Source: Pseudomonadota bacterium (GTDB lineage Bacteria; Desulfobacterota; Binatia; Binatales; Binataceae). Taken from it: a stretch of 64,000 nt of DNA. Positions 42,161 through 60,281 of the stretch are shown piece by piece. The first letter of the stretch is position 1; each line of letters begins with the position of its first letter. The stretch spans positions 62,001 through 126,000 of the forward strand of contig JAJPHI010000009.1 in the NCBI GenBank assembly GCA_021325355.1, in the 5' to 3' direction. The notes under the pieces are model-generated. The model was not told the DNA's origin and did no database searches. It saw nothing but the letters and a program-made list of their open reading frames with translations. The position numbers and the translations under genes were made by a program.

Positions 42161-42317
42161 CGCTGAAGCACCCCCGTCGGCGATGGACGGTCGCACAAAA
42201 GCGCCGGCGCTGTAAAGGCGCCGCGCTCCGCACGGCGCGCCTCTGCCGCCGCGCGATGGTTGCGCGGCCGACCGAGCTTGATGGAGAGTTGGGGCACCCG
42301 TTCCAAAGGAGAAGCAA

Positions 42318-43262
42318 GTGGAGCTGCGTAACCTTGGCAAGTCCGGACTGCGCGTGTCGGTGGTGGGCCTCGGCTGCAATAACTTCGGCATGAAAATCGA
42401 CGAGGCGGCGACGCGGGCCGTGGTCGACAAGGCCCTCGACGTTGGCATCACGCTGTTCGATACCGCCGACATCTATGGCAACCGCGGCACTTCGGAAACC
42501 TTCCTCGGCGCGATTCTCGGCGAGCGGCGCAAGGCCATCGTGCTCGCCACCAAGTTCGGGATGCAGATGGACCGGGCGGGCGTGCTCAAGGGTGCGGCGC
42601 GCCGCTATATCATGGCCGCCGTCGAGGACAGCCTGCGCCGTCTTCGCACCGACTGGATCGATCTCTACCAGTTGCATCAGCCCGATCCGCTGACCCCGAT
42701 TGAAGAGACCCTGCGCGCGCTCGATGACCTCATCCGGCAGGGCAAGGTGCGTTACATCGGCTGCTCGAATCTGCCGGCGTGGCAGGTGGTCGAAGCGCAC
42801 TGGACGGCGAAGAGCCTCGGGCTCAATGGGTTTGTTTCATGCCAGGACGAGTACAGCCTGCTGGTCCGTGACGTCGAACGGGATCTGCTGCCGGCGATGA
42901 GCGCCTACGGGCTCGGCATGCTGCCCTACTTTCCCTTGGCAAGCGGACTTTTAACCGGCAAGTACAAGCGTGCGCAGGCCATGCCCGAAGGAACACGGCT
43001 CGCCCTGATGAAGCCGCTCGCCGAGCGCTGGGTCAACGACACCAACTGGGCCATCGTCGAACGGCTCGAGGCCTATGCGACGGAGCGCGGCCATACGCTG
43101 CTCGAGCTCGCCATGAGCTGGCTGGCGGCGCGACCGACGGTGGCCAGCGTGATCGCGGGCGCCACCACGCCGGCCCAGGTCGAGCAGAATGTCAAGGCGG
43201 TCGAGTGGCGGCTCACCGCCGAGGAGCTGGCGGCGATCGATAAGATGAGCCACAAGCAGTGA
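42318..43262 (+). CDS. Aldo/keto reductase
   Basis: 314 residues; GTG start after AAAGGAGA. AKR fold: LGKSGLRVSVVGLGCNNFG, DTADIYGNRGTSETFLG with catalytic Asp and Tyr, ATKFGMQMD with the Lys, and DLYQLHQPDPLTPIEE with the His. C-terminal ASVIAGATTPAQVEQNVKA binds the NADP phosphate. Resembles the Gfo-like/YajO group of potassium-channel beta-subunit relatives. Divergent from the SDR gene (157 bp between). Confidence 0.92.
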   Translation: MELRNLGKSGLRVSVVGLGCNNFGMKIDEAATRAVVDKALDVGITLFDTADIYGNRGTSETFLGAILGERRKAIVLATKFGMQMDRAGVLKGAARRYIMAAVEDSLRRLRTDWIDLYQLHQPDPLTPIEETLRALDDLIRQGKVRYIGCSNLPAWQVVEAHWTAKSLGLNGFVSCQDEYSLLVRDVERDLLPAMSAYGLGMLPYFPLASGLLTGKYKRAQAMPEGTRLALMKPLAERWVNDTNWAIVERLEAYATERGHTLLELAMSWLAARPTVASVIAGATTPAQVEQNVKAVEWRLTAEELAAIDKMSHKQ

Positions 43263-43293
43263 GGGTCGCGAAGTCGCCTGACGCCTCAGCGTT

Positions 43294-43719
43294 TCAGGCC
43301 AGCACCACCTGCACGAACAACTGGATAACCAGCGCGAGCATCGTGATTGCGCCCACCGTATACGCGACGGTGCGCCAGGGCTGGATGCCGTTCAGGTAGA
43401 AATAGGTATGCAGGATGCGCATCACCATGAAGACGCTGCAATAGACTTCGAAGGCGCCGCGGCCGAGCCCGGCCATCACGTAGATGCCGGCGAGAATGAG
43501 AAAGATGGGGATGTTTTCGAGGTCGTTGCGCCAGGCGCGGGCGGCCTTGTCAACGATCGCCACCTCGGTCGCCTCGAGCCGTCCGCCCATCATCCGCGCG
43601 TCCTCCTCGACGGTAAAGACGCGGGCGCGGTTGCGCGCCACTCCCTGGACCACCGAGTTGACCGCCATCTTGAGCGTCAGCACAACGGCCGTGAGCGCAT
43701 ACATTTTGAGCAATGGCAT
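43294..43719 (-). CDS. MAPEG-family membrane protein
   Basis: 141 residues, four predicted transmembrane helices. MAPEG (membrane-associated eicosanoid/glutathione metabolism) signatures: ARAWRNDLENIPIFLILAGI and MRILHTYFYLNGIQPWRTVAY, the RxxxNxxE/E glutathione-contact region. Members conjugate glutathione or reduce lipid peroxides; bacterial roles are poorly defined. Convergent with the aldo/keto reductase and divergent from the SDR at 43.9 kb. Confidence 0.9.
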   Translation of the reverse strand: MPLLKMYALTAVVLTLKMAVNSVVQGVARNRARVFTVEEDARMMGGRLEATEVAIVDKAARAWRNDLENIPIFLILAGIYVMAGLGRGAFEVYCSVFMVMRILHTYFYLNGIQPWRTVAYTVGAITMLALVIQLFVQVVLA

Positions 43720-43855
43720 GACGGGTTCCCCCTCCGCGTGGATCTGCGAGTTCCATAGCGCCGGCCCGCGACGCTGTAAACCGGCGGCGCTGGCGATTCG
43801 TCGCCTCAGCGACTAGGTTGAACGCCTTAAGAATTCGACAAGGAGACCAATTGCG

Positions 43856-44677
43856 ATGGGCAGGCTCGATAACAAAGTCGCCGTGATTACCGGTGCGGCA
43901 AGCGGGATGGGGCGGGCCAGTGCGATGCGCTTTGCGGCCGAGGGGGCGGCGGTGGTGGTGGCCGATCTGAACGCGCAGGGCGCCGAAGGGGTGGTTGCGG
44001 AAATCGCCGCCCACGGCGGCCGCGCGGTGTTTCAGCGCACCGACGTGACCAGTGAAAACGATATCAAGGCGCTGATCGACCGGGCGGTGCGCGAATTCGG
44101 ACGCCTCGATATCACCTTCAACAACGCCGGTCTGGGCGGCGCGACCGGCAAGCTCGAAGAGGTCACGGTCGAGGACTGGGACAAGACCTTCCACGTGCTG
44201 ACGCGAGCCGTCTTTCTCGGCATCAAGCACTCGGTCGGCCCGATGCGCAAGAACGGCGGCGGATCGATCATCTCGACCTCGTCGATGGGCGGCATCCGCC
44301 CGGCGGCGGGCTTGACGGCGTACTGCGCGGCCAAGGCGGCGGTGGTGAATCTCACGATGGCGGCGGCGATCGAGTATGGCCACGACCATATTCGCGTCAA
44401 CTGCATCTGTCCGGGCGGCATCCTGACGCCCCTGGTCTATCGCGGACAGCCGGGCGGTGAGGAGGCGGCGGCCAAAAACATGGCGCGCGCGCAGCCGATT
44501 CCAAGGGCGGGGTTGCCCGAAGATATCGCCAACATGGCGCTGTTTCTGGCGAGCGACGAGTCCGAGTGGATCACCGGCACGGCGATGATGGTGGATGGCG
44601 GGATGAACACCGGCAATGCGCGTATCCGGTTCGGCACCGGATGGTCGGGACCGTCGTTCGAACGTCGCGAGCGTTAG
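43856..44677 (+). CDS. Short-chain dehydrogenase/reductase
   Basis: 273 residues; ATG 43856 preceded by AAGGAGA. TGAASGMGRA nucleotide-binding motif, FNNAGLGG, catalytic Ser (STSSMGG), YCAAK Tyr/Lys pair and MMVDGGMNTG. Similar to the SDR at 41.4 kb but with a longer C-terminal tail. Last gene before the parS-containing gap. Confidence 0.91.
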   Translation: MGRLDNKVAVITGAASGMGRASAMRFAAEGAAVVVADLNAQGAEGVVAEIAAHGGRAVFQRTDVTSENDIKALIDRAVREFGRLDITFNNAGLGGATGKLEEVTVEDWDKTFHVLTRAVFLGIKHSVGPMRKNGGGSIISTSSMGGIRPAAGLTAYCAAKAAVVNLTMAAAIEYGHDHIRVNCICPGGILTPLVYRGQPGGEEAAAKNMARAQPIPRAGLPEDIANMALFLASDESEWITGTAMMVDGGMNTGNARIRFGTGWSGPSFERRER

Positions 44678-44775
44678 ACCGTGCGCGGCAGGCTGCCGAC
44701 CGTCGTCGGTATCCTGCCCGCGAGCTTGCGGGGTGGCGCGCCGCCGCGGCGAGTGCCGGCACGGGAAGCGCGGAA

Positions 44776-44791
44776 TGTTTCACGTGAAACA
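44776..44791. promoter_or_regulatory. parS site (ParB-binding palindrome), copy 1
   Basis: TGTTTCACGTGAAACA, an exact match to the bacterial parS consensus and a perfect palindrome extending to 18 bp (44775-44792). A chance exact 16-mer in 64 kb is very unlikely. ParB-CTP loads here to nucleate the partition complex, normally near the replication origin. Confidence 0.88.
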
Positions 44792-44820
44792 TGGGCGGTG
44801 ATGACCGGGGCCACGCGCGA

Positions 44821-44836
44821 GGTTTCACGTGAAACA
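44821..44836. promoter_or_regulatory. parS site, copy 2
   Basis: GGTTTCACGTGAAACA, one mismatch (first base) to the parS consensus, with an intact 14-bp palindromic core (44822-44835). It lies 45 bp from copy 1, start to start, in the same intergenic gap. Confidence 0.85.
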
Positions 44837-44845
44837 TTCGATGGT

Positions 44846-44892
44846 TGTGGAAGGATAGTCCGGTTCTCCACAGGAATCTGCCGCTCTCCACA
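44846..44892. promoter_or_regulatory. DnaA-box-like repeats
   Basis: TTCTCCACA (44864-44872) matches the relaxed box TTNTCCACA and is one base off TTATCCACA. CTCTCCACA (44884-44892) is two off, same orientation, exactly 20 bp on. A weaker reverse copy, CCTTCCACA, reads on the minus strand at 44854-44846. Binding by DnaA is inferred only. Confidence 0.45.
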
Positions 44893-44928
44893 GGTTTCGG
44901 CGACCGGAAGCGGGCGCGATACTTGACA

Positions 44929-44953
44929 AAACCCGCGGCGCTCTTCCGGGTTT
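44929..44953. repeat. Inverted repeat AAACCCG / CGGGTTT at the imuA promoter
   Basis: Perfect 7-bp arms separated by 11 bases; the right arm overlaps the -35 element of the imuA promoter, a position suited to a repressor such as the SOS regulator. It does not match a LexA box I can name. Confidence 0.45.
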
Positions 44954-44980
44954 GACATACGAAAGAAAAGCGAAAATGAT
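44952..44980 (+). promoter_or_regulatory. Promoter of imuA-imuB
   Basis: TTGACA (44952-44957), 17-base spacer, AATGAT (44975-44980). A perfect -35 and a 4/6 -10. The predicted transcription start falls at about 44987, the GTG of imuA, so the message may be leaderless. A second TTGACA at 44923-44928 has no good -10. Confidence 0.6.
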
Positions 44981-44986
44981 TAGCGG

Positions 44987-45790
44987 GTGGACGCCGCTCT
45001 CCAGACTCGCGAGCCGCCCGGACCGCCGCCGATATATCGTTCGGCAGGCCGCCGGCTGCCGGAGGTCAGCGGGGTCTTTCACGGCCGCGAGCTGACGCGC
45101 AAGGAGCGCCGACTCGCCTGTGGTATCGAGGTAATCGACCGGCTGCTGGCCGGCGGTATCCTGCGCGGCCGGCTCAGCGAATTGGTCGGGGCGGTAAGCG
45201 GCGGCAAAACCTCGCTCGCGATGGCTTTTGCGGCTCAGGCGACGCAGCGCGAGGCCGCCGCCTGGATCGAAACCGGCAACAGCCTTGACCCGCTGAGCCT
45301 GACTGCCAGCGGGATCAATCCGGCGCGGATGCTCTGGGTGGCCTGTCCCGCGCCGTCACACGGACGCACGTTGCCGGCGCTCAAGGTGGCGGAATGGCTC
45401 CTCGGCGTCGGCGGCTTCGGGCTGGTGGTGCTGGATTTGGCCGGCGAACAGCGCCTGCTTCCGATCGGCGTATCGTTGCGGATCGCGCGCGCGGCCGAAG
45501 CGAGCGGCGCCGCGGTGATGGTGCTGGCCGAACGTCGCGTTTGTGGGGCGCCGGCGGCGCTCACGTTGAGCTTGACGGGGCGGCAGGCGCGGTTCAGCCG
45601 CAGCGCTCCCCAGGCACCGGCGCTGTTCGACGGTATCGAAGTCGAACTCACGGTGCGGCACAACAAGCTCGGGGGAGTGGGCGCCGGAGTGCGCTGGTCT
45701 GCGGTGACGGCATGGGATTCCCGGTCGGGGCGTGCGCGGCGGAGCGCGGCGGCCGCAGAACCCCGGCCTCTTGCCGTCGATGCGGGTTGA
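44987..45790 (+). CDS. imuA: ImuA-like RecA-fold protein of SOS mutagenesis
   Basis: 267 residues, GTG start. RecA-like ATPase core: LACGIEVIDRLLAGGILRGRL then a Walker A-like GAVSGGKTSLAMAF near residue 70, and a hydrophobic Walker B strand FGLVVLDLAG near residue 148. ImuA works with ImuB (and usually DnaE2) in error-prone translesion synthesis after DNA damage. The ImuB start is 3 bp after its stop. The Walker A and following sequence are better preserved than in many ImuA proteins. Assignment rests on the fold plus adjacency to imuB. Confidence 0.85.
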   Translation: MDAALQTREPPGPPPIYRSAGRRLPEVSGVFHGRELTRKERRLACGIEVIDRLLAGGILRGRLSELVGAVSGGKTSLAMAFAAQATQREAAAWIETGNSLDPLSLTASGINPARMLWVACPAPSHGRTLPALKVAEWLLGVGGFGLVVLDLAGEQRLLPIGVSLRIARAAEASGAAVMVLAERRVCGAPAALTLSLTGRQARFSRSAPQAPALFDGIEVELTVRHNKLGGVGAGVRWSAVTAWDSRSGRARRSAAAAEPRPLAVDAG

Positions 45791-45792
45791 GC

Positions 45793-47538
45793 ATGTACCG
45801 CGGCCGTTTTATTCCGGCGTCGGACGGAAGTCTCCCCGCGGCGGTCCAGCCGACGGAGTTGACGGCTGACGAGGCGGATGCGCGCAGGGCCGGCGGGCGA
45901 CGTATCGCCTGTGTCCTGATTGCCGATTTTCCGATAGCGGCGCTGGTGCGGACCAATCCGGAATGGCGCGAACGGCCGCTGGCCCTGACCCGCCAGGCGC
46001 GGCCGCGACCGGCGCGCGGCGGGACGGCGGCGACCTCCTCGAAGGAGCCGGCGGGGCAATGGACGCCGTATGGCGAATTGAGCCACGTGGCGCCGGTGGC
46101 AGCGGCAATGGGAGTGCGGGCGGGCATGACGATCGCGCAGGGCCGCGCGCTGCTGCCGGAGCTGATCGTGACCCATCCGTCGCCCGCCGCCGAGGAGGCC
46201 GCACGGGCCGCGCTTATCGATGTGGCCTGGTCGTTTTCGCCCGTGATCGAAGAACGTGCGCCGGGATGTGTCTGGATCGACCTGAGCGGCACGGAAGGGC
46301 TTTATCGTCAGGAGCCATACGCGGCGGCGACGGCGTTGGAGCAGCGGATCGCCGAAGCGATTGCACGGCGGGTGCGCGGGATTGGCCTGGAAGCGGCGGT
46401 CGGGATCGCGTCGAGTAAGGAGCTGGCTTACCTGGCGGCGCGCTGCGGCGGGTTGCGCCTGGTGGCGAACGGGCGGGAGCGGGAATTCCTCGACTGGATG
46501 CCGCTCGAACTGACCGAGCTGGGGACGGCATCCGGCGGATTGCCGGACTGGCTCAAGCGGATGGGGCTGCGACGGCTGGGCGATCTGGCGCGGCTCGATC
46601 CGCACGCGGTGGGCACGCGGATGGGCGCGGCGGGAGTGGCGCTCGCCCGGCTGGCGCGGGGGGAAGGATCGGCGCTAGTCAGGGCCCGGCCCCGACCCGA
46701 GGATTTTACGGAAGCGCTCGAGCTCGAATACGGGATCGAGCAACTCGAGGCCTTGACCTTCCTTCTGCGCGCGATGCTCGACCGGCTGTGCGCGCGTCTC
46801 GCCCTGCGCGGACTCGCGGTCGGCGGTTTGACGCTGGGACTGGGACTGGCGGATGGCGGGCGCGACGAACGGCGGATTACAGCAGCGGCGCCGACCACGG
46901 AAAGCGCGGCACTGCTCACGCTGCTGCGGTTGAACCTCGAAGCCCGCGGGCCCGCCGCGGCCGTCGAAACGCTTCGTTTGACGGCGGAAGCGCGTCAACC
47001 GCGTCCGCTGGTGAACGATCTGTTTCAGCCGCCGGCGCCGGCCGCGGATCGGCTGGGGGTGGTGATCGCGCGGATTGCGGCGCTCTGCGGTCCGGATCGG
47101 GTCGGCACGCTGCTGGCGGCGGACTCGTATCGACCGGAAGCGGTACGGGTGGGTGCGTTCGCACCGTCAGCCGCGGGCGCCGCGCCGCCGCAATCAACCC
47201 TGGCGGGCAAGACTCCGGCGGGCAAGCCGGACGTTGCGCCGATTGCGCTGCGAGCGGTGCGGCCGGCCGAAGAGGTCGAAGTGCTGTGCCTCGGTGAACG
47301 TCCGCAGTTCGTACGGGGAAAGCGCGTATGCGCGCGGGTGATATCGAGCGCCGGACCGTGGCGGCGGCAGGGCGAATGGTGGTCCGCCGCGACCGGGGAG
47401 GAGCAGGCAGGGCCGGTGGCGCGACCGGCGGCGTATGCGCGCGATTACTACGAACTGGCGCTGGCCGACGGCGGCGTTTACCGGGTGTATTACGATCATC
47501 AACGCGGACAGTGGTTCGTCGACGGCGTGTATGACTAG
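45793..47538 (+). CDS. imuB: ImuB, inactive Y-family polymerase-like protein
   Basis: 581 residues from ATG 45793 (MYRGRFIPASDG); the upstream open frame is the imuA shadow. Y-family palm/fingers region: RRIACVLIADFPIAALVR, AAAMGVRAGMTIAQGRALLPEL, WIDLSGTEGLY and GLEAAVGIASSKELAYLAAR. The catalytic acids of DinB-type polymerases are not conserved (no DE pair in WIDLSGT), as expected for ImuB, which acts as a clamp-binding adaptor. The C-terminus, RDYYELALADGGVYRVYYDH, is typical ImuB. No dnaE2 follows here. Confidence 0.9.
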   Translation: MYRGRFIPASDGSLPAAVQPTELTADEADARRAGGRRIACVLIADFPIAALVRTNPEWRERPLALTRQARPRPARGGTAATSSKEPAGQWTPYGELSHVAPVAAAMGVRAGMTIAQGRALLPELIVTHPSPAAEEAARAALIDVAWSFSPVIEERAPGCVWIDLSGTEGLYRQEPYAAATALEQRIAEAIARRVRGIGLEAAVGIASSKELAYLAARCGGLRLVANGREREFLDWMPLELTELGTASGGLPDWLKRMGLRRLGDLARLDPHAVGTRMGAAGVALARLARGEGSALVRARPRPEDFTEALELEYGIEQLEALTFLLRAMLDRLCARLALRGLAVGGLTLGLGLADGGRDERRITAAAPTTESAALLTLLRLNLEARGPAAAVETLRLTAEARQPRPLVNDLFQPPAPAADRLGVVIARIAALCGPDRVGTLLAADSYRPEAVRVGAFAPSAAGAAPPQSTLAGKTPAGKPDVAPIALRAVRPAEEVEVLCLGERPQFVRGKRVCARVISSAGPWRRQGEWWSAATGEEQAGPVARPAAYARDYYELALADGGVYRVYYDHQRGQWFVDGVYD

Positions 47539-47638
47539 CGGGACTTGGCGAGAAGGGCGGCGGCGATGGGGGCGAGGGATCAGCGCGGGCCCCTCCGGCG
47601 AGGCTGACTGCGGCGCGGCGGCGCGCTAGGAGTAACCG

Positions 47639-48844
47639 ATGCGCCTCAACTATCGGCAGTCTCTCGCGCCGCTCAAGCTGGTGATCGGCCTGATCGTGAT
47701 CATGGGGGTCGCGCGTGAACCGGCGAGCGGGAGTGGAGCGGCCGCCATGACCGATCCCAAGCCACCGCAGGTGAGTATCGATTTCCTCTTTCCGCCGAGC
47801 GTGCTTATCCAGGAAGGCAAGCCGCGGCTGGTTTATGAGATGCGCATCTCCAACTACGTGCCGCAGGCGTACACGTTGGAAGCGATCGCGGTGGAGGCCG
47901 GAAAAAAGCGGTTCCGTTACGACGGCGCGACGCTCCGTGAGATGACGCGATTTCTGGGCGCCAGGGAGCCCATCGCCAGCACGCTCGCTTTGGCCCCGGG
48001 ACAGAGCGCGATCGTTTTCTTTACGCTCACGTTTGACGACCGCGCGGAGGTGCCGGCCGCGTTGGAACATACGCTGCATTTCCGGGCGCCGGACCAGACG
48101 CTGCACGCGCTCGTACCGGCGCCGCTGACGGTCGGACAGCAGCCGCCGGTGGTGGTCGCTCCGCCGCTGCGCGGCGGTGACTGGATCGCGGGCGACGCGA
48201 CCCACAACGGCCCCGACGCGGCCCATCGGCGGACGATTCTGCTGGCCGCGGGCCGGCCGTGGCTCGCGCAGAGATATGCGATCGATTGGGTGAAGTATCG
48301 GCTGGTGGGCGGCGAGGCGACGACCTGGTCGGGACCGGAGGATCAGAACGCGAGCTATTTCTGCTACAACGCGCCGATCTACAGCGTGGCCGACGGCACG
48401 GTGGTGGCGGCGATGGACGGGGTGCCGGAAAATGTGCCGCATTCGGGGAAATATGCAGTGGAGATCAACTTTATCAATGCCGGCGGCAATTACGTGGTGG
48501 TCGATATCGGCGCGAATCGCTACGTGTTCTATGCGCACATGCGACCGGGGTCGGTGGCGGTGAAGGTTGGCGACCATGTGACGACGGGTCAGTTGATCGG
48601 CCATATCGGCAATACCGGCAGCTCGACCGAGCCGCATCTGCATATGCATATCGTCGACCATCCGTCGTTTCTCGCCGGCCAGGGGATCCCGTATGAATTC
48701 GATCGCTTCCGGGCGAGCGGCGCGCCGGAGGTTATCGCGCGGCCGCGCGATCAGATGGCCTTTCGCAACTTCGGCGCCCTCGCGCCGGCGCAGGATGATT
48801 ATCCGGCCAACAATGCCGCGGTGACCTTCCCTGAGTCGCCCTAG
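47639..48844 (+). CDS. M23-family (LytM-like) peptidase or homologue
   Basis: 401 residues with an N-terminal hydrophobic export segment (LKLVIGLIVIMGVA). Residues ~30-180 form a beta-rich domain. The C-terminal LytM region has IYSVADGTVVAAMDG, YVFYAHMRPGSVAVKVGDHV and the zinc motif HLHMH near residue 338. The classical first-ligand HxxxD is not next to that; a HRR ... AIDW pair around residues 200-222 may supply it, as in a soil-bacterial subgroup. Probable envelope endopeptidase; activity not certain. 100 bp after imuB. Confidence 0.82.
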   Translation: MRLNYRQSLAPLKLVIGLIVIMGVAREPASGSGAAAMTDPKPPQVSIDFLFPPSVLIQEGKPRLVYEMRISNYVPQAYTLEAIAVEAGKKRFRYDGATLREMTRFLGAREPIASTLALAPGQSAIVFFTLTFDDRAEVPAALEHTLHFRAPDQTLHALVPAPLTVGQQPPVVVAPPLRGGDWIAGDATHNGPDAAHRRTILLAAGRPWLAQRYAIDWVKYRLVGGEATTWSGPEDQNASYFCYNAPIYSVADGTVVAAMDGVPENVPHSGKYAVEINFINAGGNYVVVDIGANRYVFYAHMRPGSVAVKVGDHVTTGQLIGHIGNTGSSTEPHLHMHIVDHPSFLAGQGIPYEFDRFRASGAPEVIARPRDQMAFRNFGALAPAQDDYPANNAAVTFPESP

Positions 48845-48859
48845 AAGGGAGCGCAGCGC

Positions 48860-49417
48860 ATGGACGCGGAAGCGGAGCGGATCGAGCGGCGGTTGAACGT
48901 CGATTTTCTGATGTCGGTATGCGCGCTGCTGATCAGCGCCGTGGTCTGCGCGACGGCGGTCTATCAGCTACGCAATGCGTCGCTGATGATGGCGGCGCAG
49001 ACCTGGCCCTACGTCACCGCGGGCTGGCAGTACGACAATGACGAGGCGGGGATCGTGATCATCAACGACGGTCAGGGTCCGGCGATTGTTCATGCGGTGA
49101 GTCTCGCGATCGACGGCGAGCCGCAGCATGACGTGGTCAGCGCGCTGCGTCGGTTGATCAGCGGGCAGGCGGGCCAGGTGCAGGTCGACGCGATCGGCCA
49201 TGGGAGCGTGATTCGCCCGGGGCAGACGATGCGCCTGCTGATGGTGCGCGGGGCGCAGTGGAACACGCAACTGCGGGCCGCGCGCAAGCGGATCCGAGTG
49301 GGCCTCTGTTACTGCTCGGTGCTCGATCGCTGCTGGACAACCACGCTCGATAGTCTGCCGACCGCCGTGGACCATTGCACTGAACGCGACAGTCTCGCGG
49401 TGCCGGAACCCGATTAG
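48860..49417 (+). CDS. Small membrane-anchored protein of unknown function
   Basis: 185 residues, not recognised. One transmembrane helix near residues 18-36 (LMSVCALLISAVVCATAVY), with the remainder probably extracytoplasmic and beta-rich (VTAGWQYDNDEAGIVIINDGQ). It contains several cysteines in the C-terminal part (GLCYCSVLDRCW). It begins 15 bp after the M23 gene on the same strand and is likely co-transcribed with it. Confidence 0.7.
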   Translation: MDAEAERIERRLNVDFLMSVCALLISAVVCATAVYQLRNASLMMAAQTWPYVTAGWQYDNDEAGIVIINDGQGPAIVHAVSLAIDGEPQHDVVSALRRLISGQAGQVQVDAIGHGSVIRPGQTMRLLMVRGAQWNTQLRAARKRIRVGLCYCSVLDRCWTTTLDSLPTAVDHCTERDSLAVPEPD

Positions 49418-49516
49418 GACAGCGACGGCGCGGGCGGTGGCCGGCGGCGCGCTGCCGCGCTGCAAGCGGACGCCGGCGGCGCGCCTCGGCTGGAGCTCAG
49501 GCGTGGCGGTGGAGAT

Positions 49517-50245
49517 TCACTCGATATCGTCGCCGGAATCGGCTGCGGGCGGGGCTGCGGGCGCGGCCGCGGCGGAGGGTTGGACGGCGGTCGGTGTGGC
49601 CGTCGGCGTCGGTGGCGGCGGCGTGTTGTAGAGGCCGAGGTCCTGGATGATCTCGACGGCGTGAAGCGAAGGATCGACGTTGGGATAGACCTTCACGATG
49701 GTGCCGTTTTCGTCGATCACGTAAGTGACGCGGCGGTCGAGGCCGAGAATCGGGATGCCGTTGGCGACGCCGTAAGCGCGGGCAATCTTCTTGTCGGGAT
49801 CGGCCAGCAGGGGGAAGGGCAGTTGATATTTGCGGGCGAAGCCGCGATGAGAATCGGCCGAATCAACGCTGCATCCGAGCAGCACGATGCCCCATTGCTG
49901 AAAGCGGGCGTAACCGTCGCGGAAGGCGCACGCTTCCCGGGTGCATCCGGGGGTGCCGTCCTTGGGATAGAAATAGAGCACGACCTTCCGCCCGTGGTAG
50001 TCGCTCAGGCGGACGGGAGTGACCTGATCACCGAGGACGGCGTCGGTGGCGAATTCGGGCGCGGTATCGCCGACCTTAAGGAGTTCGGCGCGGGCGAGTT
50101 TCGGGAACAGTAAAGCGAGCAGCATCGTGGTCAGTACGGCCGTGAGGCCGGCGTGAACGGCGCCGCGGCGCGCGGCGCGCGGTCGGTCAGGTGGCGCGCA
50201 AGGCGCCATCCGAGGAGCGGGAACAGTGGGCGCCGCAGGCGGCAT
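49517..50245 (-). CDS. Exported Bcp/PrxQ-type peroxiredoxin
   Basis: 242 residues from ATG 50245. N-terminal anchor or signal (AGLTAVLTTMLLALLFPKLARA), then a BCP-type thioredoxin fold: LKVGDTAPEFATDAV, and the peroxidatic/resolving Cys pair in DGTPGCTREACAFRD (TPGCT Cys plus the Cys five residues later). The C-terminus is an unusual Pro/Thr/Ala-rich tail of about 40 residues. It reduces peroxides, probably in the periplasm. Its start is 5 bp past the ilvE stop, so the two share a transcript. Confidence 0.9.
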   Translation of the reverse strand: MPPAAPTVPAPRMAPCAPPDRPRAARRGAVHAGLTAVLTTMLLALLFPKLARAELLKVGDTAPEFATDAVLGDQVTPVRLSDYHGRKVVLYFYPKDGTPGCTREACAFRDGYARFQQWGIVLLGCSVDSADSHRGFARKYQLPFPLLADPDKKIARAYGVANGIPILGLDRRVTYVIDENGTIVKVYPNVDPSLHAVEIIQDLGLYNTPPPPTPTATPTAVQPSAAAAPAAPPAADSGDDIE

Positions 50246-50249
50246 CGGG

Positions 50250-51176
50250 TCATACGTAGTGGAGCCAGCTTGAATAACGCGCGTCACGACCGTGAAGGGC
50301 GGCCTGGAAGACCTCGATGATATTGCGGGTGATCGGACCGGGGCGCCCGGCACCGATCCGGCGATCGTCGAGTTCGCGCACCGGAGTGACTTCGGCGGCG
50401 GTGCCGGTCATGAAGGCCTCGTCGGCGATATAGACGGCGTCGCGCGGGAAGAATTGTTCGACCACGGGAATCTGCAGGTCGCGCAGGATTTTGATGACGG
50501 CGTCGCGGGTGATGCCGGGGAGACTCGAGGTGACGGGCGGCGTCTTCACCACGCCGTCGCGAACGATAAAGAAATTTTCGCCGCTGCCTTCGGCGACGAA
50601 GCCGTTGACGTCGAGCAGCAGCGCCTCATCGTAGCCGAGCTTGCGGGCTTCGGTGCCGGCGAGCGCCGAGTTGACATAAGGGGCGGAGAGCTTGGCGTAG
50701 GCGGGCAGCGAATTGTGATGATAGCGAACGAAGGACGAGGTCTTGAGGCGCACGCCTTTGGCCAGGCCGTCCTCGCCGAGATAGGCGCCCCAGGGCCATA
50801 CGGCGATGGCGACGCGGACCTTGTTATCGCGCGCCGAGACGCCCATCTGGCCTTCGCCGTAAAAGGCGATTGGGCGGATATAGCACTCCTGCAGGCGGTT
50901 GACGCGGACGGTGTCGGCGCAGGCCTTGACCAGCTCCTCCTGGGAGAACGGGATGGTCATCTCGACGATATGCGCGGAGTCGAGCATCCGGCGGATATGC
51001 TCGTTGGCGCGGAAGATCGCTGAGCGACCGTCGTCGCACTTATAGCAGCGCATCCCTTCGAAGACGGCCATGCCGTAATGCAGGCTATGGGTGAGGACGT
51101 GGACGCGGGCTTCGTCCCACGGAATCAGACCACCGTCCATCCAGATTTTATCGGTACGTAAGCCGTCGGATGCCAC
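50250..51176 (-). CDS. ilvE: Branched-chain amino-acid aminotransferase
   Basis: 308 residues, typical for the class IV family. Reversible transamination of Leu, Ile and Val with 2-oxoglutarate, PLP-dependent. Motifs: IWMDGGLIPWDEARVHVLTHS, HYGMAVFEGMRCYKC, the PLP-Lys region SLPAYAKLSAPYVNSALAG, and EGSGENFFIVRDGV. The phosphate-binding SSLPGITRDAVI is also present. Upstream of the peroxiredoxin gene. Confidence 0.95.
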   Translation of the reverse strand: MASDGLRTDKIWMDGGLIPWDEARVHVLTHSLHYGMAVFEGMRCYKCDDGRSAIFRANEHIRRMLDSAHIVEMTIPFSQEELVKACADTVRVNRLQECYIRPIAFYGEGQMGVSARDNKVRVAIAVWPWGAYLGEDGLAKGVRLKTSSFVRYHHNSLPAYAKLSAPYVNSALAGTEARKLGYDEALLLDVNGFVAEGSGENFFIVRDGVVKTPPVTSSLPGITRDAVIKILRDLQIPVVEQFFPRDAVYIADEAFMTGTAAEVTPVRELDDRRIGAGRPGPITRNIIEVFQAALHGRDARYSSWLHYV

Positions 51177-51276
51177 AATTTCCTCGCGGTATGGTTGCGG
51201 CCGATCAAGCTTGGGCGGATGCGGCGCGCAGATGTGTATGCATTCTTAGTGAAAGCCCGCGGCAGCGACAAGCGCT

Positions 51277-52635
51277 TCACTCGGTGGCGTTGGGATCGGG
51301 CGCGGTGAGGCCGCGTGACTCTTCGGCGAGGGTCGGGAGCGGCGCGGCGGCGAGCGGCGCGGCAGCGAGCGGTGGGGGCGCCATCGCGGGATCGCCGCCG
51401 TTGTGCGGTAGCGACGTGGCAAGCGCGGTCGGCGTCGGACGGCGGCGGCGGCCGGAACGGCGACGGCGGCGGCGCAGGGAGGCTTTCGGCGGGGCCGGGG
51501 GCGCGGCAAGAAACTGATCGAGCTCTGCGGGGTCATCGCCGATCGTCGGCGCGACCAATTCGAAGAGGCGGCGGGCGTCGTTGAAGTAGGGGCGCGTGGC
51601 CAGCCGTCGCAGATTGCGCGCGCGGGTGACGATCAGCGTGAGCGCTTCGAGCAGCACGCGCATCTGATCGGTTTCGGCGCGCGAGAAACCGCGTTGGCGG
51701 AGCGCGTCAACCAGGGCGAAGCGGTCGCCGGGGTTGGCCGCGCGCTGCTGCGCGAGATGAAGATCGGCATAGAGGCAGGCCAGGATGAGCGGGCGCGGGG
51801 GGTCGATGCCGCGGGCAATCAAGGCGCCCAGCCGTGTGAGATTGGCTACGGACGGCGCGGTTTCGAGGTCCGGGGCGGCAGCGAGATGGGCGGCGAGCAA
51901 CGGCAGCAGCAGTTCGAGCAGGCCGAGACGCTGCAGCAGCATCAGGGCGAGGTCGGCGTCGGGCAGGGTCAGGGTGCGAAAGGTCTCTTCGACGAGGCGT
52001 GGAGTGGAAGCCTTGAGCAAATCGCGGCGATGGCGCTCGATAGCGGCGAGGGTCGCCGGTTCGATCTCGAGGCCGAGTTTAACCGCGAAGCGCACGGCGC
52101 GGATCATCCGCACCGGATCCTCGCGCATCCGGAGCTCGGGGTCGCCGATCGTGCGAATCAGCCGCGCCTTGATATCGGCCGCGCCGTTGACGTAGTCGAT
52201 GACGCGGAAGGTTGCCGGATCGTAGAAGAGGGCGTTGATGGTGAAATCGCGGCGGAAGGCGTCTTCCTCGGGCGTGCCGAAGGTATTGTCGTGACGGATG
52301 AGCGGATCGTCGTCGAGGGTAAGCTGTTCGGCCTGGCGGCGAAAGGTGGCAACCTCGATGTTCTGCTGGCGGAAAAAGACATGCACGAGGCGGAAACGGC
52401 GGCCGATCATGCGGGAATTGCGGAACAGTTCGCGCACCTGATGGGGATGGGCCGAGGTGGCGACGTCGAAGTCCTTGGGCCGCCCGCCCATCATGAGGTC
52501 GCGAACGCCACCGCCGACGAGATAGGCGATATGGCCGGCGCCGATTAAGCGGTAGAGAACCTTGAGGACGTTGGGATCGATATCGCGGCGGGAGACCGGA
52601 TGCTCGGCGCGTTCGAGGATAACTGGGGTCACCAT
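51277..52635 (-). CDS. pcnB: Poly(A) polymerase / polynucleotide adenylyltransferase
   Basis: About 452 residues from ATG 52635 (a GTG just upstream is possible). Class II nucleotidyltransferase head: AYLVGGGVRDLMMGGRPKDF, with the catalytic DxD in KDFDVATSAH, then RRFRLVHVFFRQQNIEVATF, typical of PcnB rather than CCA-adding enzymes. The N-terminal VSRRDIDPNVLKVLYRLIGAG also fits PcnB. It adds poly(A) to RNA 3' ends to mark them for decay. The last ~80 residues are an Arg/Ala/Pro-rich tail. Confidence 0.9.
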   Translation of the reverse strand: MVTPVILERAEHPVSRRDIDPNVLKVLYRLIGAGHIAYLVGGGVRDLMMGGRPKDFDVATSAHPHQVRELFRNSRMIGRRFRLVHVFFRQQNIEVATFRRQAEQLTLDDDPLIRHDNTFGTPEEDAFRRDFTINALFYDPATFRVIDYVNGAADIKARLIRTIGDPELRMREDPVRMIRAVRFAVKLGLEIEPATLAAIERHRRDLLKASTPRLVEETFRTLTLPDADLALMLLQRLGLLELLLPLLAAHLAAAPDLETAPSVANLTRLGALIARGIDPPRPLILACLYADLHLAQQRAANPGDRFALVDALRQRGFSRAETDQMRVLLEALTLIVTRARNLRRLATRPYFNDARRLFELVAPTIGDDPAELDQFLAAPPAPPKASLRRRRRRSGRRRRPTPTALATSLPHNGGDPAMAPPPLAAAPLAAAPLPTLAEESRGLTAPDPNATE

Positions 52636-52726
52636 CACGACCTGAGTCCGCGAATGACTATGGCGACTCTAGCATGCGCGCGGGGCAAGTTCATCGCTTG
52701 GAGATGAGGCACGCTGTCGACGGCAA

Positions 52727-52749
52727 TTAAGCAGCTATTGTATGCTTAA
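52727..52749. repeat. Inverted repeat TTAAGCA / TGCTTAA
   Basis: Perfect 7-bp arms with a 9-base spacer in the 246-bp gap between divergent pcnB and the DHH phosphoesterase gene, in an AT-rich stretch. Good geometry for a dimeric repressor or activator; nothing else gene-like is in the gap. Confidence 0.45.
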
Positions 52750-52881
52750 GCGATTTATTTGCACTGCCAACAGGTCATGCTATCGGCACCGTCAGATCGG
52801 ACGGGGCGTCGCAAACGTCGCGGGAGGGCGTGCGGAACGGCGGTAATCGTGCCGTCAGAGGGAGCTTGCTAGAATCGTCGG

Positions 52882-53853
52882 ATGATCAAGAGCGATGGTC
52901 GCACGATAAATGTCGTCAGCCACGGTCCCTCGTGCCTCGACGGGGTGATGGCGGCGGCGGCGGTGCGCCGGTTTCATCCGGGGGACCGCGTGCATACGGT
53001 GCTGGCGGCCAATGGCGACAGTGATCGGGTGATCCAGGGGGTGCAGCCGCGGGCCAACGGCAGGATCGACGAGTTATGGATAACGGATTTATCGTGGACA
53101 GCGACGGCGACGCGGGACCATCTGATCCGGATGGCGGAGAGCGGCACGGCGATCTTCTGGATCGACCACCATCGCACGGTGTTGTCACGGCGCGACGCAC
53201 CGGAATATCAGGCGACTTTCGCGGGACGGGTGCTGAGTGAGAAATTTTCGGCGGCGAAGCTCACCTATCATTTCCTGATGCAGCGGGCGCAGGCCGCGCA
53301 CGATGAGGAGGCGCTGCGCGCGGGGCGGAATTTTGCCGCCTTCGCGGATCTGGCCGACGATCACGATCGCTGGATTCATGCGATCCCGGAATCGGAAGAC
53401 TGGGCGCTGGCGGTGCAGACCCTCGGCGGGATCGAATCGTATCGCGACATTATCCAACTGGACGAGCCGGTGATGACGCGCCGGCTGCGGGCGGCGCTGG
53501 AGGAAGGGCGGTCGGCGATGGCGCGCAGTCTCGAGATTGCGCGGAGCACGCTCGTCGAGCGTTCGCTGGGCAACGGACTGAGTGTGTGCAGCGCGTGCTG
53601 CATGGGCTACAGCAGCGAGGTGGCGGCGAAGCTCTACGCCGAACGCCGGCAGACGGTGGTGGCGCTGTTCGATTTGCGAAGTCTTGGGGTGAGTCTGCGG
53701 CGCAGCGCCGATTGTGAAGTGGATCTTTCGGAACTGGCGCGGCATTTCGGCGGCGGCGGGCATGCGGCGGCGGCGGGTTTTTCCGTCGCCGAGGTGAAGC
53801 GGGCGCCGGCCGAACGGCTGGTCGAACTGCTCGGTCATCACCTGATTGATTAG
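52882..53853 (+). CDS. DHH/DHHA1-family phosphoesterase
   Basis: 323 residues. N-terminal metal-site strand VVSHGPSCLDGVMAA, the DHH motif in FWIDHHRTVL, and a C-terminal DHHA1 domain ending RHFGGGGHAAAAGF. The family includes RecJ-like nucleases, oligoribonuclease NrnA and c-di-AMP phosphodiesterases. Length and lack of RecJ domains favour an NrnA-like or nucleotide-dimer role. An Asp in place of the first-motif DxD residues should be checked. Possibly co-transcribed with the TRIC gene 48 bp downstream. Confidence 0.87.
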   Translation: MIKSDGRTINVVSHGPSCLDGVMAAAAVRRFHPGDRVHTVLAANGDSDRVIQGVQPRANGRIDELWITDLSWTATATRDHLIRMAESGTAIFWIDHHRTVLSRRDAPEYQATFAGRVLSEKFSAAKLTYHFLMQRAQAAHDEEALRAGRNFAAFADLADDHDRWIHAIPESEDWALAVQTLGGIESYRDIIQLDEPVMTRRLRAALEEGRSAMARSLEIARSTLVERSLGNGLSVCSACCMGYSSEVAAKLYAERRQTVVALFDLRSLGVSLRRSADCEVDLSELARHFGGGGHAAAAGFSVAEVKRAPAERLVELLGHHLID

Positions 53854-53901
53854 GAGCCCGGCGATTACTGCGGAGCCAAGGGGCGGGCGCGGCGCTCGCG
53901 G

Positions 53902-54510
53902 GTGGCCGTGCTGCTGATCGTTCTGGACCTTGCGGGCACGCTGGTTTTTGCGGTCGAGGGAGCGATGGCCGGACTGGCCGGAGGGCTCGATGTCTTCGGT
54001 CTGCTGGTGGTCGCTTTCGTGACGGCGCTCGGCGGCGGGACGATGCGCGATCTGCTGATCGGGGCGGTTCCGCCGAATTCGATTCGCGACTGGCGTTACG
54101 GCGGGATCGCTTTTGCGGGTGGCGCGGCGGTGTTCTTCCTGCATTACTTCGTCGGACGGCTGCCCGGCGAGCTGCTGATGGTCCTTGATGCCGCGGGGCT
54201 CGCGCTGTTTGCGGTCGCCGGGACCGAGAAGGCGCTGGACTACGGGGTGGGCGAATTCGCGGCGGCGTTGATGGGAACGATCACGGCGGTGGGCGGCGGC
54301 ACGCTGCGCGATGTATTGCTGGCGCAGATTCCGCTGGTGCTGCGCGCCGACGTCTATGCGACGGCGGCGCTGGCGGGGTCGCTCGTACTGTTAGCGGCGC
54401 GGCGGCTGGGGAGTGGGCCGCGGGCGGCCGCGGCGTTGGGTGCGGGCGGCTGCTTCGTCCTGCGGGTGGTTGCCGCGACCCATCACTGGAATCTGCCGCA
54501 TGCGCTGTAG
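53902..54510 (+). CDS. TRIC-family (UPF0126) membrane channel
   Basis: 202 residues, seven predicted helices in two repeats, each ending with a conserved G-G-G-T-x-R-D motif (GGGTMRDLLIG near residue 45 and GGGTLRDVLL near 132). Trimeric intracellular cation channel family; bacterial members conduct K+ or may transport small solutes. GTG start with no strong ribosome site. The stop codon lies at the edge of a 23-bp tandem duplication. Confidence 0.92.
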   Translation: MAVLLIVLDLAGTLVFAVEGAMAGLAGGLDVFGLLVVAFVTALGGGTMRDLLIGAVPPNSIRDWRYGGIAFAGGAAVFFLHYFVGRLPGELLMVLDAAGLALFAVAGTEKALDYGVGEFAAALMGTITAVGGGTLRDVLLAQIPLVLRADVYATAALAGSLVLLAARRLGSGPRAAAALGAGGCFVLRVVAATHHWNLPHAL

Positions 54511-54533
54511 GGAATCTGCCGCATGCGCGGTAG
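54488..54533 (+). repeat. 23-bp tandem duplication at the 3' end of the TRIC gene
   Basis: GGAATCTGCCGCATGCGCTG plus TAG (54488-54510) is repeated head to tail at 54511-54533 with one T-to-G change. The first copy encodes the last residues and stop codon of the TRIC protein; the second is untranslated. Looks like a recent slippage duplication. Confidence 0.9.
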
Positions 54534-54553
54534 GGGCCGGACGGCACCGGGGG

Positions 54554-55456
54554 TCACATCCCGATGAGATTCGCCTTCTCGATGACGTTGCGGATGATGC
54601 GGACCGAGGCGGCGTCGATCATGACGCCGTCGAAGGTTACCGCGCCAAGACCTTCGGCCTCGGCTTTGGCGTAGGCGGCGGCGAGCTGGCGGGCGCGGTC
54701 GACCTCTTCCTGGGACGGCGAGAACATCTCGTTGGCGATATCGATCTGGCTCGGATGAATGGCCCATTTGCCGACGAAGCCCATGGTGGCGGAGCGCAGC
54801 GCCTCCTCGCGATAACCGTCGGGATTGCGGAAGTCCGCATAGGGGCCGTCGATGGCGTCGATCCCGGCGGCGCGGGCGGCGACGACGATCTTGCTGCGCG
54901 CGTAGTGCCAGATATCGCCGGGGTAGGTGGTGATTGAACCGCCGATGGTTTTACCCATCCGCACGCCCTGCGAAGCGCTGAAGTCACCCGGGCCGAAGAT
55001 GATCGCTTCAAGGCGCGGAGTGGCACGGGCGATCTCCTCGACGTTAATCAGGGCTTCGACCTCTTCGATGAGGCATTCGAGGGCAATTTTTCTGGTGCGT
55101 TTAAGGCGCATCTCGATCTGCGTTAGCAGGGTATCGACCCAGAGGACGTCGCGGGCGGTCTTGACCTTGGGAATGATGATGATGTCGAGGAAGTCGCCGG
55201 CCTGTTCGACGACCTCGATAACGTCCTGATAAGCGTATTCGGTTTCCAGGTTATTCATGCGGATGGCGCGGGTTTTACGGCCCCAGTCGAGCTCTTTGAG
55301 GGCGCGAATCACCTTGCCGCGCGCTTCGACCTTTTGATTGGGTGCGACGGCGTCTTCGAGATCGAGGAAAACGACGTCGGCATTGGAGGCGAGGGCCTTT
55401 TCGATCATCCGCTCGTTGCTGCCGGGGGTGGAGAGTTCGCAGCGTCGTAGTCTCAT
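54554..55456 (-). CDS. HpcH/HpaI or CitE-type CoA-ester lyase
   Basis: 300 residues. TIM-barrel lyase of the malyl-CoA / citramalyl-CoA / CitE group: RRCELSTPGSNERMIEKALA, DVVFLDLEDAVAPNQK with the substrate-Arg and metal region, ALECLIEEVEALINVEEIA (metal Glu), FGPGDFSASQ (metal Asp), and GFVGKWAIHPSQI. It would split or form 3-hydroxyacyl-CoA. It follows the MaoC/acyl-CoA dehydrogenase genes by 170 bp on the same strand, suggesting one pathway. Confidence 0.9.
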   Translation of the reverse strand: MRLRRCELSTPGSNERMIEKALASNADVVFLDLEDAVAPNQKVEARGKVIRALKELDWGRKTRAIRMNNLETEYAYQDVIEVVEQAGDFLDIIIIPKVKTARDVLWVDTLLTQIEMRLKRTRKIALECLIEEVEALINVEEIARATPRLEAIIFGPGDFSASQGVRMGKTIGGSITTYPGDIWHYARSKIVVAARAAGIDAIDGPYADFRNPDGYREEALRSATMGFVGKWAIHPSQIDIANEMFSPSQEEVDRARQLAAAYAKAEAEGLGAVTFDGVMIDAASVRIIRNVIEKANLIGM

Positions 55457-55626
55457 CGGAGAACTCCTTGACGGAAGAGGTTATGCGCCTCGCTCAGGAT
55501 AGCAAGCGGCGAGCGACCGCGGCCACGCTTGCGTATCGTGAGCCAAGAGCTGGCGCGGCGCGGGAGGATGACGGGCGAAGCTCGGCCCACGGTCGGATGA
55601 CCTTCGGGGCGTGAGCCGCGCGGGGG

Positions 55627-56355
55627 CTAACGCGGGCGCCGTCGACCACCGGGGCGCGCGGTTTTCGAACGGGCGGGTTTGGCGCGCTTGGTGACCTTGC
55701 CGCCGCGCGGGCGTGGCGCGAGTGCGCTCGGCGCCATCGCCGCGGCTTTGCGGGTGGTGGCGCGGCGGCGGCGCACGGCGCGAGCGGACGGCTTGACGCT
55801 GCCGGCGCGGGTCGGCGGGCGGAGCGCCGGTTTTGCCGGTTCCTCGTCAACGGCCAGTCCCTCGGTGGTGAAGGCGCGTTTCTTGATGAGGGTTTTGCGC
55901 TCGCCTTCGAAGACGGTCTCGCCGCGCTGATTGACACCCCAATGACGGAAATGGACGAGGCCGACGTTCTGATGACCGCGCAGCTCGGCAGGATCGTCGG
56001 TTTTGGCGAGCACTTCGGTGAAGGCATAGAGGGTGTCGCCATGGAGGACGGGGACGCGAAAGCGGACCTTGTCGAGGGCCACTTCCTCGACGGCGTTTTC
56101 GCCCGTGTCCTGCATCGCGAGTCCGATCACCAGCGAGGCGGTCACGCCGCCGAAGGTGATGCGATGCTGCTGGGGCAGCGAGGCGGCAAGATGTTCGTTG
56201 AAGTGGGCCTGGGCGGTGTTGAGAACGAGGTTGGTGATGAGCACGTTCTCGAGGCCCTCGACGGTTTTGCCGCGGGCGTGCTCATAGACGTCGCCGAGGT
56301 TGAAGTCTTCGTAGTAGTTGTTGCGGCCGGTGAGGGCGGCGAGATCGATAGTCAT
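55627..56355 (-). CDS. MaoC-family hydratase with histone-like basic tail
   Basis: 242 residues. Residues 1-165 form a MaoC hot-dog hydratase: YYEDFNLGDVYEHARGKTVE, FNEHLAASLPQQHRITFGG and LHGDTLYAFTEVLAK. The final ~60 residues are a Lys/Arg/Ala/Pro-rich segment with motifs such as RRRRATTRKAAAM and KRAKPARSKTAR, resembling histone-H1 tails. The tail is coded in the same frame with no break. Overlaps the acyl-CoA dehydrogenase start by 4 bases. Likely to hydrate an unsaturated CoA ester; the role of the tail is unknown. Confidence 0.85.
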   Translation of the reverse strand: MTIDLAALTGRNNYYEDFNLGDVYEHARGKTVEGLENVLITNLVLNTAQAHFNEHLAASLPQQHRITFGGVTASLVIGLAMQDTGENAVEEVALDKVRFRVPVLHGDTLYAFTEVLAKTDDPAELRGHQNVGLVHFRHWGVNQRGETVFEGERKTLIKKRAFTTEGLAVDEEPAKPALRPPTRAGSVKPSARAVRRRRATTRKAAAMAPSALAPRPRGGKVTKRAKPARSKTARPGGRRRPR

Positions 56356-57506
56356 TCGGGGAGCGCTCCCAGGAGACGGTCGGAGATGATGCGCAACTGG
56401 ATCTGCGAGGTGCCTTCAAAAATCTTGGTGAGGCGGGCGTCGCGCCAGTAGCGCTCGAGTGGCAGATCGCGGGTATAGCCGTAACCGCCGTGGATCTGCA
56501 GGGCGTCGGAGGTGACCCGTTCGGCCATCTCGGTGGCGAACCACTTGACCATCGAAGCCTCCTTGTCGCAGCGCCGTTTGCTGTCGACGTCGGTGGCGAC
56601 GGCGTACATCAGTTGGCGGGCGGCTTCGACATTGGCCGCCATCTCGGCGAGTTTGAAGCGGATGGCCTGGAATTCGGCGATCGGGCGTTTGAATTGCGAG
56701 CGGCGCTGGGCGTAGGCCAGCGAATCCTCGAGGGCGCCGCGGGCGAGACCGATGGCGCGGGCGGCGGTATGGACGCGGGCGACTTCGAGAAAAGCCATCA
56801 TGGTGTAGAAGCCGCGGCCCTCCTCGCCGACCATCGTGGTGGCGGGGATGCGACAATTGTCGAAATGGAGTTCCCAGGTCTTCCAGCCGAAGTAACCGAT
56901 TTTGCGAATCGGCGTGCCGGTGCATCCGGGGGGCAGCTTGCCGCGCTCCTTTTCGATCATGAACTGGGTGATGCCGACGTGGCGGCGCTTGCCTTCGGGC
57001 GGCGCCGTGCGCGCGAACAGGTGAATGAAGTCGGCGCCGTCGGCAAAGGTGCACCAGGTCTTGGTGCCGTTGATGACGAAATCATCGCCGTCGCGCGTCG
57101 CCTTGCAGGAAACGTTGGCGAGGTCGGAGCCGGCGTCGGGTTCGGAGAGGGAGAAGGCGCCGAGATACTCACCGCGCGCCATTTTGGGGAAGATTTTGCG
57201 TTTCTGCTCTTCGGTAATGTCGCCCCAGATACCGTTGCCGCGCGCGATGATACTGGCGACGCTCATCCAGGCGCGCGCCAGCTCTTCGGCGACTAGCGCA
57301 TACTCGAAGCATCCGAGGCCAAGCCCGCCGTATTCTTCGGGAATGAGGATGCCGAAATAGCCGAGCTCGCCCATCTTGTTGCGCAACTCCATCGGGATAT
57401 CGCCCTCGACGGGGTCGAGCTTGTTGGCCACGGGCAGGACCTCGTTGAGGGCGAACTCCCGCGCGGTGTCCTGGATCAGCTTGCGCTCTTCGGTGATATA
57501 GCTCAT
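56352..57506 (-). CDS. Acyl-CoA dehydrogenase
   Basis: 384 residues. Complete FAD-dependent acyl-CoA dehydrogenase: GAFSLSEPDAGSDLANVSCK, NGTKTWCTFADGAD, YAQRRSQFKRPIAEFQAIRF, QIHGGYGYTRDLPLERYWRD and the catalytic Glu in KIFEGTSQIQL. In contrast to the dehydrogenase at 8.8-10.0 kb, this one has the canonical C-terminal Glu. Overlaps both neighbours by 4 bases: MaoC upstream (57503) and MaoC downstream (56355). Confidence 0.95.
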   Translation of the reverse strand: MSYITEERKLIQDTAREFALNEVLPVANKLDPVEGDIPMELRNKMGELGYFGILIPEEYGGLGLGCFEYALVAEELARAWMSVASIIARGNGIWGDITEEQKRKIFPKMARGEYLGAFSLSEPDAGSDLANVSCKATRDGDDFVINGTKTWCTFADGADFIHLFARTAPPEGKRRHVGITQFMIEKERGKLPPGCTGTPIRKIGYFGWKTWELHFDNCRIPATTMVGEEGRGFYTMMAFLEVARVHTAARAIGLARGALEDSLAYAQRRSQFKRPIAEFQAIRFKLAEMAANVEAARQLMYAVATDVDSKRRCDKEASMVKWFATEMAERVTSDALQIHGGYGYTRDLPLERYWRDARLTKIFEGTSQIQLRIISDRLLGALPE

Positions 57507-58015: not shown

Positions 58016-58190
58016 GCAGCTTCACTCCGTGTTTTGTCCGGCCGGCGCGGCGACGGACAAATTCAGCGTCGATACTCTGCCATGACGGGCGGCGGCGCTC
58101 AAATTGCGCGAAGGGGCGGAAGGCGGCACTGGCGGCCGGGGGTGGCGGCGCTCTTGGCTTGATCGGCGCGGCGTGTTAGTCGGGATCGAT

Positions 58191-58679: not shown

Positions 58680-58768
58680 AAGGCCCGAAGGCGGTCGGGC
58701 GTGCTGAAAGCGCGGTCGCTCAGCGTACCGCGATCCGCGATCGTCAGGCGGTCTGACGCGCTGAAGCG

Positions 58769-59488: not shown

Positions 59489-59549
59489 GATGGTCCTCGC
59501 TGCGATTGGGTATGCTTGGGGCGCGCGCTGATGCGATATCCCAGGGGGC

Positions 59550-60263: not shown

Positions 60264-60281
60264 GGTCAGCCTCCTCGCGGG

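Follow-up and report, generated by a model that had tools for sequence, protein, structure and literature searches.

A pair of parS palindromes lies in one intergenic gap of a 64,000-nucleotide stretch (the window; C20:62001-126000, contig JAJPHI010000009.1) of the draft genome of a bacterium of the family Binataceae, and an abrupt switch in GC skew accompanies this pair and every other place in the genome where the intact parS core occurs. On the evidence of the sequence, we somewhat favor the interpretation that these places are dispersed, ParB-marked and DnaA-dependent candidate origins of a many-origin bacterial chromosome, with roughly 13 origin-centromere units, the window pair belonging to one of them. 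We regard as evenly balanced the fuller proposal that about a dozen dispersed candidate origins each combine a compact DnaA-box module with their own parS, and that ParB marks, perhaps licenses, and segregates each of them as it is fired. The proposal draws on the presence of parS at 13/13 skew jumps and of the module at 11/13, on the decay of skew with distance and on its independence of gene strand; that replication starts at the modules today, that DnaA and ParB act on them, and all of the regulation, we infer.

The original prediction, made from the letters of the window, placed one perfect and one single-mismatch copy of the 16-bp ParB site 45 bp apart in one gap, and this was borne out. 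Copy 1 (TGTTTCACGTGAAACA) has 0 mismatches to the 16-bp palindrome that we take to be the parS consensus and used as search pattern, and copy 2 (GGTTTCACGTGAAACA), 45 bp away start to start, has 1 mismatch, at its first base (Table 1). These copies are the only two matches in the window at up to three mismatches; shuffled sequences gave a mean of 0.11 such matches, and two or more in 2/100 shuffles, with no perfect copy required. The palindrome match of the pair goes beyond chance, and we class both copies as parS-type sites. A plasmid origin of the region was considered and rejected, positions 44600-45000 having no plasmid match.

The genome is a 3.36-Mb draft in 35 contigs whose order is not fixed by the assembly; one third of it was read letter by letter. 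It holds 27 matches to parS at up to three mismatches, against 7 for a reversed control. The 14-bp core GTTTCACGTGAAAC is kept in 24/27 (end mismatches: none in 11, one in 9, two in 4); the remaining 3 have three mismatches each. Searched alone across the whole genome, the core gave 24 copies compared to 0 for the reversed control, and genome-wide there was no sign of decayed copies carrying one or two mismatches in the core. The 24 cores fall at 13 places, on C1, C6, C14 (two), C19 (two), C20 (three: the window pair, 265492 and 407017), C25 (two), C26 and C32. Nine copies sit at the parAB cluster itself (C19:3737-7268), and the other 15 lie at 12 places, spread over seven further contigs or well away along C19 (175199), so that parS is not clustered in one domain around oriC and parAB as far as unordered contigs can tell. 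The sole parB-family match in the genome (C19:6337-6846) has an adjacent upstream ParA-like open reading frame (ORF), read from its translation alone, and dnaA lies at C19:34759-36123. The location of parB agrees with the earlier statement that the window contains none, and a genome devoid of parB, which the original prediction had counted against itself, is not what we found. With nine copies at parAB and equally good copies at 11 further places, the window pair, being on C20, is not the parAB-proximal parS cluster, and the check proposed with the original prediction, whether it is the parS closest to parAB, comes out negative. The expected proximity to a replication origin fared better: parS-type sites, a genome with parAB and an origin-like skew switch in the window all stand, while the parAB-proximal cluster does not. 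Judged by the refuting condition that the original prediction set for itself, the simple reading fails on equally good copies at 11 places besides the window and parAB, yet their scatter is not random, as each place is a local skew origin.

The first 42 kb or so of the window have negative GC skew and the remainder has positive skew; a change-point fit puts the switch roughly 1.0 kb to the left of parS copy 2. An abrupt jump of origin polarity, at a local minimum of cumulative GC skew, was found at 13/13 parS places. Jump sizes (right minus left 10 kb, with shorter flanks at C6 [3.8 kb left], the parAB cluster and C26) range from 0.103 to 0.290. Background was sampled at 1381 positions of C20 and C14, each over 15 kb away from any parS; the largest jump there is 0.060, which all 13 exceed. 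Neighboring background positions depend on one another, and circular shifts were run as well: the five parS places on C20 and C14 are the five largest jumps on these contigs, and a mean as high as theirs came up in 1/20000 shifts. Profiled along their whole length, C20 (479 kb) and C14 (394 kb) have five jumps, all at parS, with ramps from and to about zero; several origin-polarity switches therefore lie on one contiguous molecule, three on C20 and two on C14, which has no other large jump. On the approach to the window pair, skew declines from near zero to -0.116 across about 100 kb; it then jumps to +0.159 and is back near zero about 60 kb further along. Around the parS places, skew dies away within roughly 40-100 kb; mean signed values are 0.077 (0-20 kb), 0.042 (20-40 kb) and 0.010 (40-60 kb), and further out they are close to zero or slightly below it. 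Four parS-free 20-kb contig ends have a steady skew between about -0.05 and +0.06 and no switch. Change points, fitted within 10 kb of parS, lie no further than 1.7 kb to the parS side or 0.2 kb to the opposite side at any of the 13 places; in the frame of the module described below, the estimate is on the parS side in 11/11, with six of 11 support intervals excluding zero. In a post hoc comparison, module places with two parS copies (n = 3) out-jumped all those with one (n = 8; P = 0.006, or 0.018 with C14:187420 added).

Gene orientation was rejected as the source of the skew, because third codon positions of both gene strands and intergenic DNA show the jump. Pooled third-position skew of the top strand was -0.309 in plus genes and -0.089 in minus genes to the left of the 13 places, and +0.091 and +0.250, respectively, to the right; pooled intergenic skew was -0.099 on the left and +0.103 on the right. 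Place by place, third-position skew was negative on the left in 13/13 and positive on the right in 12/13, the exception being C20:407017. Gene calls came from a simple codon-usage ORF picker, with no published gene finder. The polarity of a KOPS-like motif (GGGNAGGG, 40 vs 22) was not convincing.

Aligned on one side of parS, 11/13 places share a composite module in the order parS, 26 to 32 bp, TATCCACAGGAATTTT, about 8 bp, CTATCCACARGTTTC, about 27 bp and CTTGACA, in which TTGAC is invariant in 11/11. We take the two central sites to resemble DnaA boxes, presuming TTATCCACA to be the consensus. A sequence model of the module (R1) recovered exactly these 11 modules in the whole genome at 52-75 bits, scores that are high by construction for training members; the next match reached 21 bits. 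Side and frame of the 11 modules were picked by eye before alignment, and each leave-one-out model dropped the module's row and kept the common alignment; scored in this way and without parS, every module outranked all non-module matches in the 1.12 Mb searched. E values were at most 3e-5 for 9/11, 0.0053 for C14:374626 and 0.8 for C20:407017, which came out barely ahead. Averaged over the 11 modules and over their first 100 bp, A+T content is 0.47, compared to 0.355 for C20. Each module has at most two box-like sites, fewer than the three or more DnaA boxes within one mismatch commonly asked of oriC (criterion of PMC4403523).

The parS scatter recurs in some relatives. The core occurs 0-3 times in 22 genomes outside the family and at least 8 times in 7/34 family relatives. 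Jumps in relatives were judged against a yardstick of 0.06, the background maximum of our own genome. In G001, of the same genus, 5/5 usable non-parAB places have a positive jump (mean 0.072), and in G021, of another genus, 11/14 parS places do (mean 0.097). At parAB itself, jumps are 0.173 in G001, 0.264 in G021, 0.110 in G030, 0.131 in G015, 0.117 in G026 and 0.031 in G032. The first 400 kb of G013:C6 (L226-L245), with the parAB copies and one more parS, are nearly skewless; G013 has few parS copies. Genera with scattered parS but no jumps may have weak skew even overall. Sequences around parS differ between genera: by eye and count, 4 parS copies of G001 have nearby a shorter module variant with a single TCCACAAG box, and G021, G023, G015 and G026 have genus-specific repeats around parS without a box pair (L090-L127, L273-L281), such as GGCGAAGA-parS-TCTTCGC in G021 and AGTTCAGGAGAAC in G015 and G026. 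TTGACR was not enriched near parS in relatives. In a descriptive comparison, four of our non-parAB places share gene blocks with parS places of G021; for the window, the distance between parS and the end of the shared block is 3.6 kb here and 3.5 kb in G021.

We propose that in each candidate unit DnaA would bind the box pair, some 30 bp away from parS, and open the A/T-richer stretch there, with forks leaving in both directions. ParB loaded at parS would mark the fired origin and recruit SMC for local segregation, and, as a proposal from general knowledge, might license the origin through ParA/Soj-type control of DnaA. Forks of different units would meet at variable places, which could produce the fading of skew between units. 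In human N-domains, fading skew between initiation zones is attributed to mean fork polarity (PMC3320577).

Several observations weigh against dispersed origins. The module is absent at the parAB cluster (jump 0.288) and at C14:187420 (0.237), two of the strongest jumps, so that parS, and not the boxes, is common to all 13. The boxes are degenerate: 92 sites in 1.12 Mb lie within one mismatch of TTATCCACA, only 8 of them within 150 bp of parS, at 7/13 places. The only three-box cluster found (C19:34553-34668, 116 bp) adjoins dnaA and shows no skew switch. At C20:407017, skew rises from about -0.11 no further than about zero, and third-position skew on the right is still negative (-0.085). Coding bases are only mildly co-oriented (114 vs 99 kb), and the ribosomal L2 gene at C20:283518-283748 (minus strand), 18 kb from parS 265492, would be head-on to a rightward fork. 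Among relatives, scattered parS have little or no jump in G015 (7/9 positive, mean 0.032), G026 (4/6, mean -0.001) and G023 (4/6, mean 0.020), and the R1 module was not found in 38 other family genomes at E ≤ 1e-4.

The chief rival, which we consider unlikely, keeps one origin and treats the scattered parS as ParB/SMC loading centers, where a process other than initiation (SMC traffic, ParB-bound DNA or repair polarity) would leave a strand asymmetry fading with distance. It owes its rank to parS, which all 13 jumps share and which, unlike the boxes, is the sole element to be so shared. It would accommodate the bigger jumps at two parS copies than at one, the smc gene adjoining one parS, and the right domain of C20:265492, whose end at about 275 kb coincides with the start of a block of 51 minus vs 4 plus genes, where head-on transcription might halt SMC. 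It leaves the near-zero background skew far from parS unexplained, and we know of no activity of SMC or ParB that makes single strands or strand-specific mutations. In G015 and G026, moreover, parAB jumps while most scattered parS do not, so parS alone is insufficient there. A single active origin that moved among parS units during evolution, leaving the jumps as relics of former origins, is improbable. Skew would be expected to decay slowly once an origin is lost, and our genome, G001 and G021 mostly have different places, so the units turn over; relics should nevertheless be damaged, whereas all 24 cores are intact and the modules keep their boxes and TTGAC.

We would be surprised if inversions, integrated replicons or chimeric contigs had made the switches, even in a draft assembly and with the caution that a local skew minimum is not necessarily an origin (PMC4403523). 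Peaks would be expected at inversion borders as well, whereas 13/13 are troughs with parS at most 1.7 kb away; ramps extending gradually over tens of kilobases and the same tendency in G001 and G021 are unlike mis-joins, and contamination is given as 0.05%. Just as hard to credit is that the module is a centromere-control element only, at which DnaA triggers partition without initiating replication. The precedent is Caulobacter, whose DnaA acts at DnaA boxes in parS according to the cited part of PMC6399470, but such an element would not explain the strand-asymmetry jumps, including those at the two places without a module. Multiple skew minima alone are no proof of origins (PMC4403523; likewise the cited passages of PMC3269012). 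Every skew minimum here has an intact parS and 11 have a box module, and rearrangement would add maxima and damaged sites; dispersed origins are therefore the reading we favor.

Table 1. Features of the window around the parS pair and its skew switch (positions in the window)
Feature	Position	Strand	Basis
parS copy 1, perfect 16-bp palindrome	44776..44791	none	Pattern match
parS copy 2, first base differs, head of composite module	44821..44836	none	Pattern match and module alignment
Composite module, R1 match (C20:106822-106938; 71.7 bits, R1 training member)	44822..44938	+	Sequence model; leave-one-out without parS 40.1 bits, E = 1.8e-10
DnaA-box-like site 1, TTCTCCACA, one mismatch to TTATCCACA; then GG and a short A/T-richer stretch	44864..44872	+	Module alignment
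DnaA-box-like site 2, CTCTCCACA, then GGTTT	44884..44892	+	Module alignment
CTTGACA element	44922..44928	+	Module alignment
Interval supporting fitted GC-skew change point, best about 43782; negative left, positive right	42161..43950	none	Change-point fit
Left half-domain, window part: negative skew strengthening towards parS; a further 60 kb or so of it lies to the left in C20	1..43781	none	Skew profile
Right half-domain, window part: positive skew, fading to near zero by about 60 kb to the right of parS (C20)	43783..64000	none	Skew profile
SDR-family gene, left border of parS gap, outside module	43856..44677	+	Gene-family assignment
imuA-like (RecA-domain) ORF, right border of parS gap, outside module	44987..45790	+	Gene-family assignment

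The replication genes that commonly neighbor oriC (dnaA, dnaN, hemE and others) do not flank the window pair, whose borders are the SDR-family gene and the imuA-like ORF. Among the 20 nearest genes scanned at 11 other places there was no initiator gene; the notable neighbors were smc beside C14:187420 and the RNase HII gene beside C20:407017. The smc gene (L022:10222-13812; G000:C14:187641-191231) starts about 220 bp from that parS, with an A/T-rich stretch in the gap. Directly behind the window module, imuA-like and imuB-like mutagenic-repair ORFs occupy positions 44987-47538; the imuB ORF as listed overlaps imuA, so the true imuB start is probably later. No parS was found upstream of imuA in 29 imuA loci of relatives (L041-L069), each with only about 1.5 kb of flank. 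The box cluster at C19:34553-34668, next to dnaA, is a classical oriC setting. Near the end of C20, in strongly negative skew, a short ORF (C20:475998-476288; 159-amino-acid open frame) matches only the DNA-binding end of DnaA (model positions 348-436).

Whether natural bacterial chromosomes can have more than one origin is an open question in print (PMC4403523; also the cited passages of PMC3269012). Among the systems compared here, the accepted natural case is Vibrio cholerae NSCV1, a fused chromosome with two active origins as described in the cited part of PMC6284228. The present genome offers 13 defined loci with the same marker, making the question directly addressable by read depth. We found no earlier report of parS at multiple skew switches in the open-access literature. 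If the many-origin reading is true, it would provide a bacterial counterpart of multi-origin chromosomes with a centromere in each origin, and would change how bacterial replication, termination and segregation can be organized; if the asymmetry instead stems from SMC and ParB, it would mean that loading of these proteins biases mutation between the strands, likewise a new finding.

As in Bacillus subtilis, Myxococcus xanthus and Caulobacter, the same 16-bp palindrome is present here in multiple copies with a single parAB, and up to 22 parS sites are possibly used in M. xanthus, going by the cited part of PMC6399470. Unlike in chromosomal ParABS centromeres, 12/13 places lie away from parAB, each with its own skew origin. 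In the same part of PMC6399470, DnaA-box-like sites adjoin parS in Caulobacter as they do here; that system has one unit beside one origin, whereas here 11 dispersed units have fixed order and spacing and a TTGAC element. V. cholerae NSCV1, as portrayed in the cited part of PMC6284228, joins two unlike origins by fusion, in contrast to some 13 similar units served by one parB. Archaeal multi-origin chromosomes and human N-shaped domains share with this genome several skew switches per chromosome (PMC3320577; PMC3269012), and fading skew between initiation zones reflects mean fork polarity there; compared with those accounts, each unit here would combine DnaA-box-type initiator logic with a centromere site, in domains much smaller than the human ones. 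Earlier proposals of multi-origin bacteria likewise started from multiple skew minima (Xia 2012, cited passages of PMC3269012; Gao 2015, PMC4403523). Within those passages they relied on skew and at most two DnaA-box clusters per chromosome, whereas in this genome parS marks every jump.
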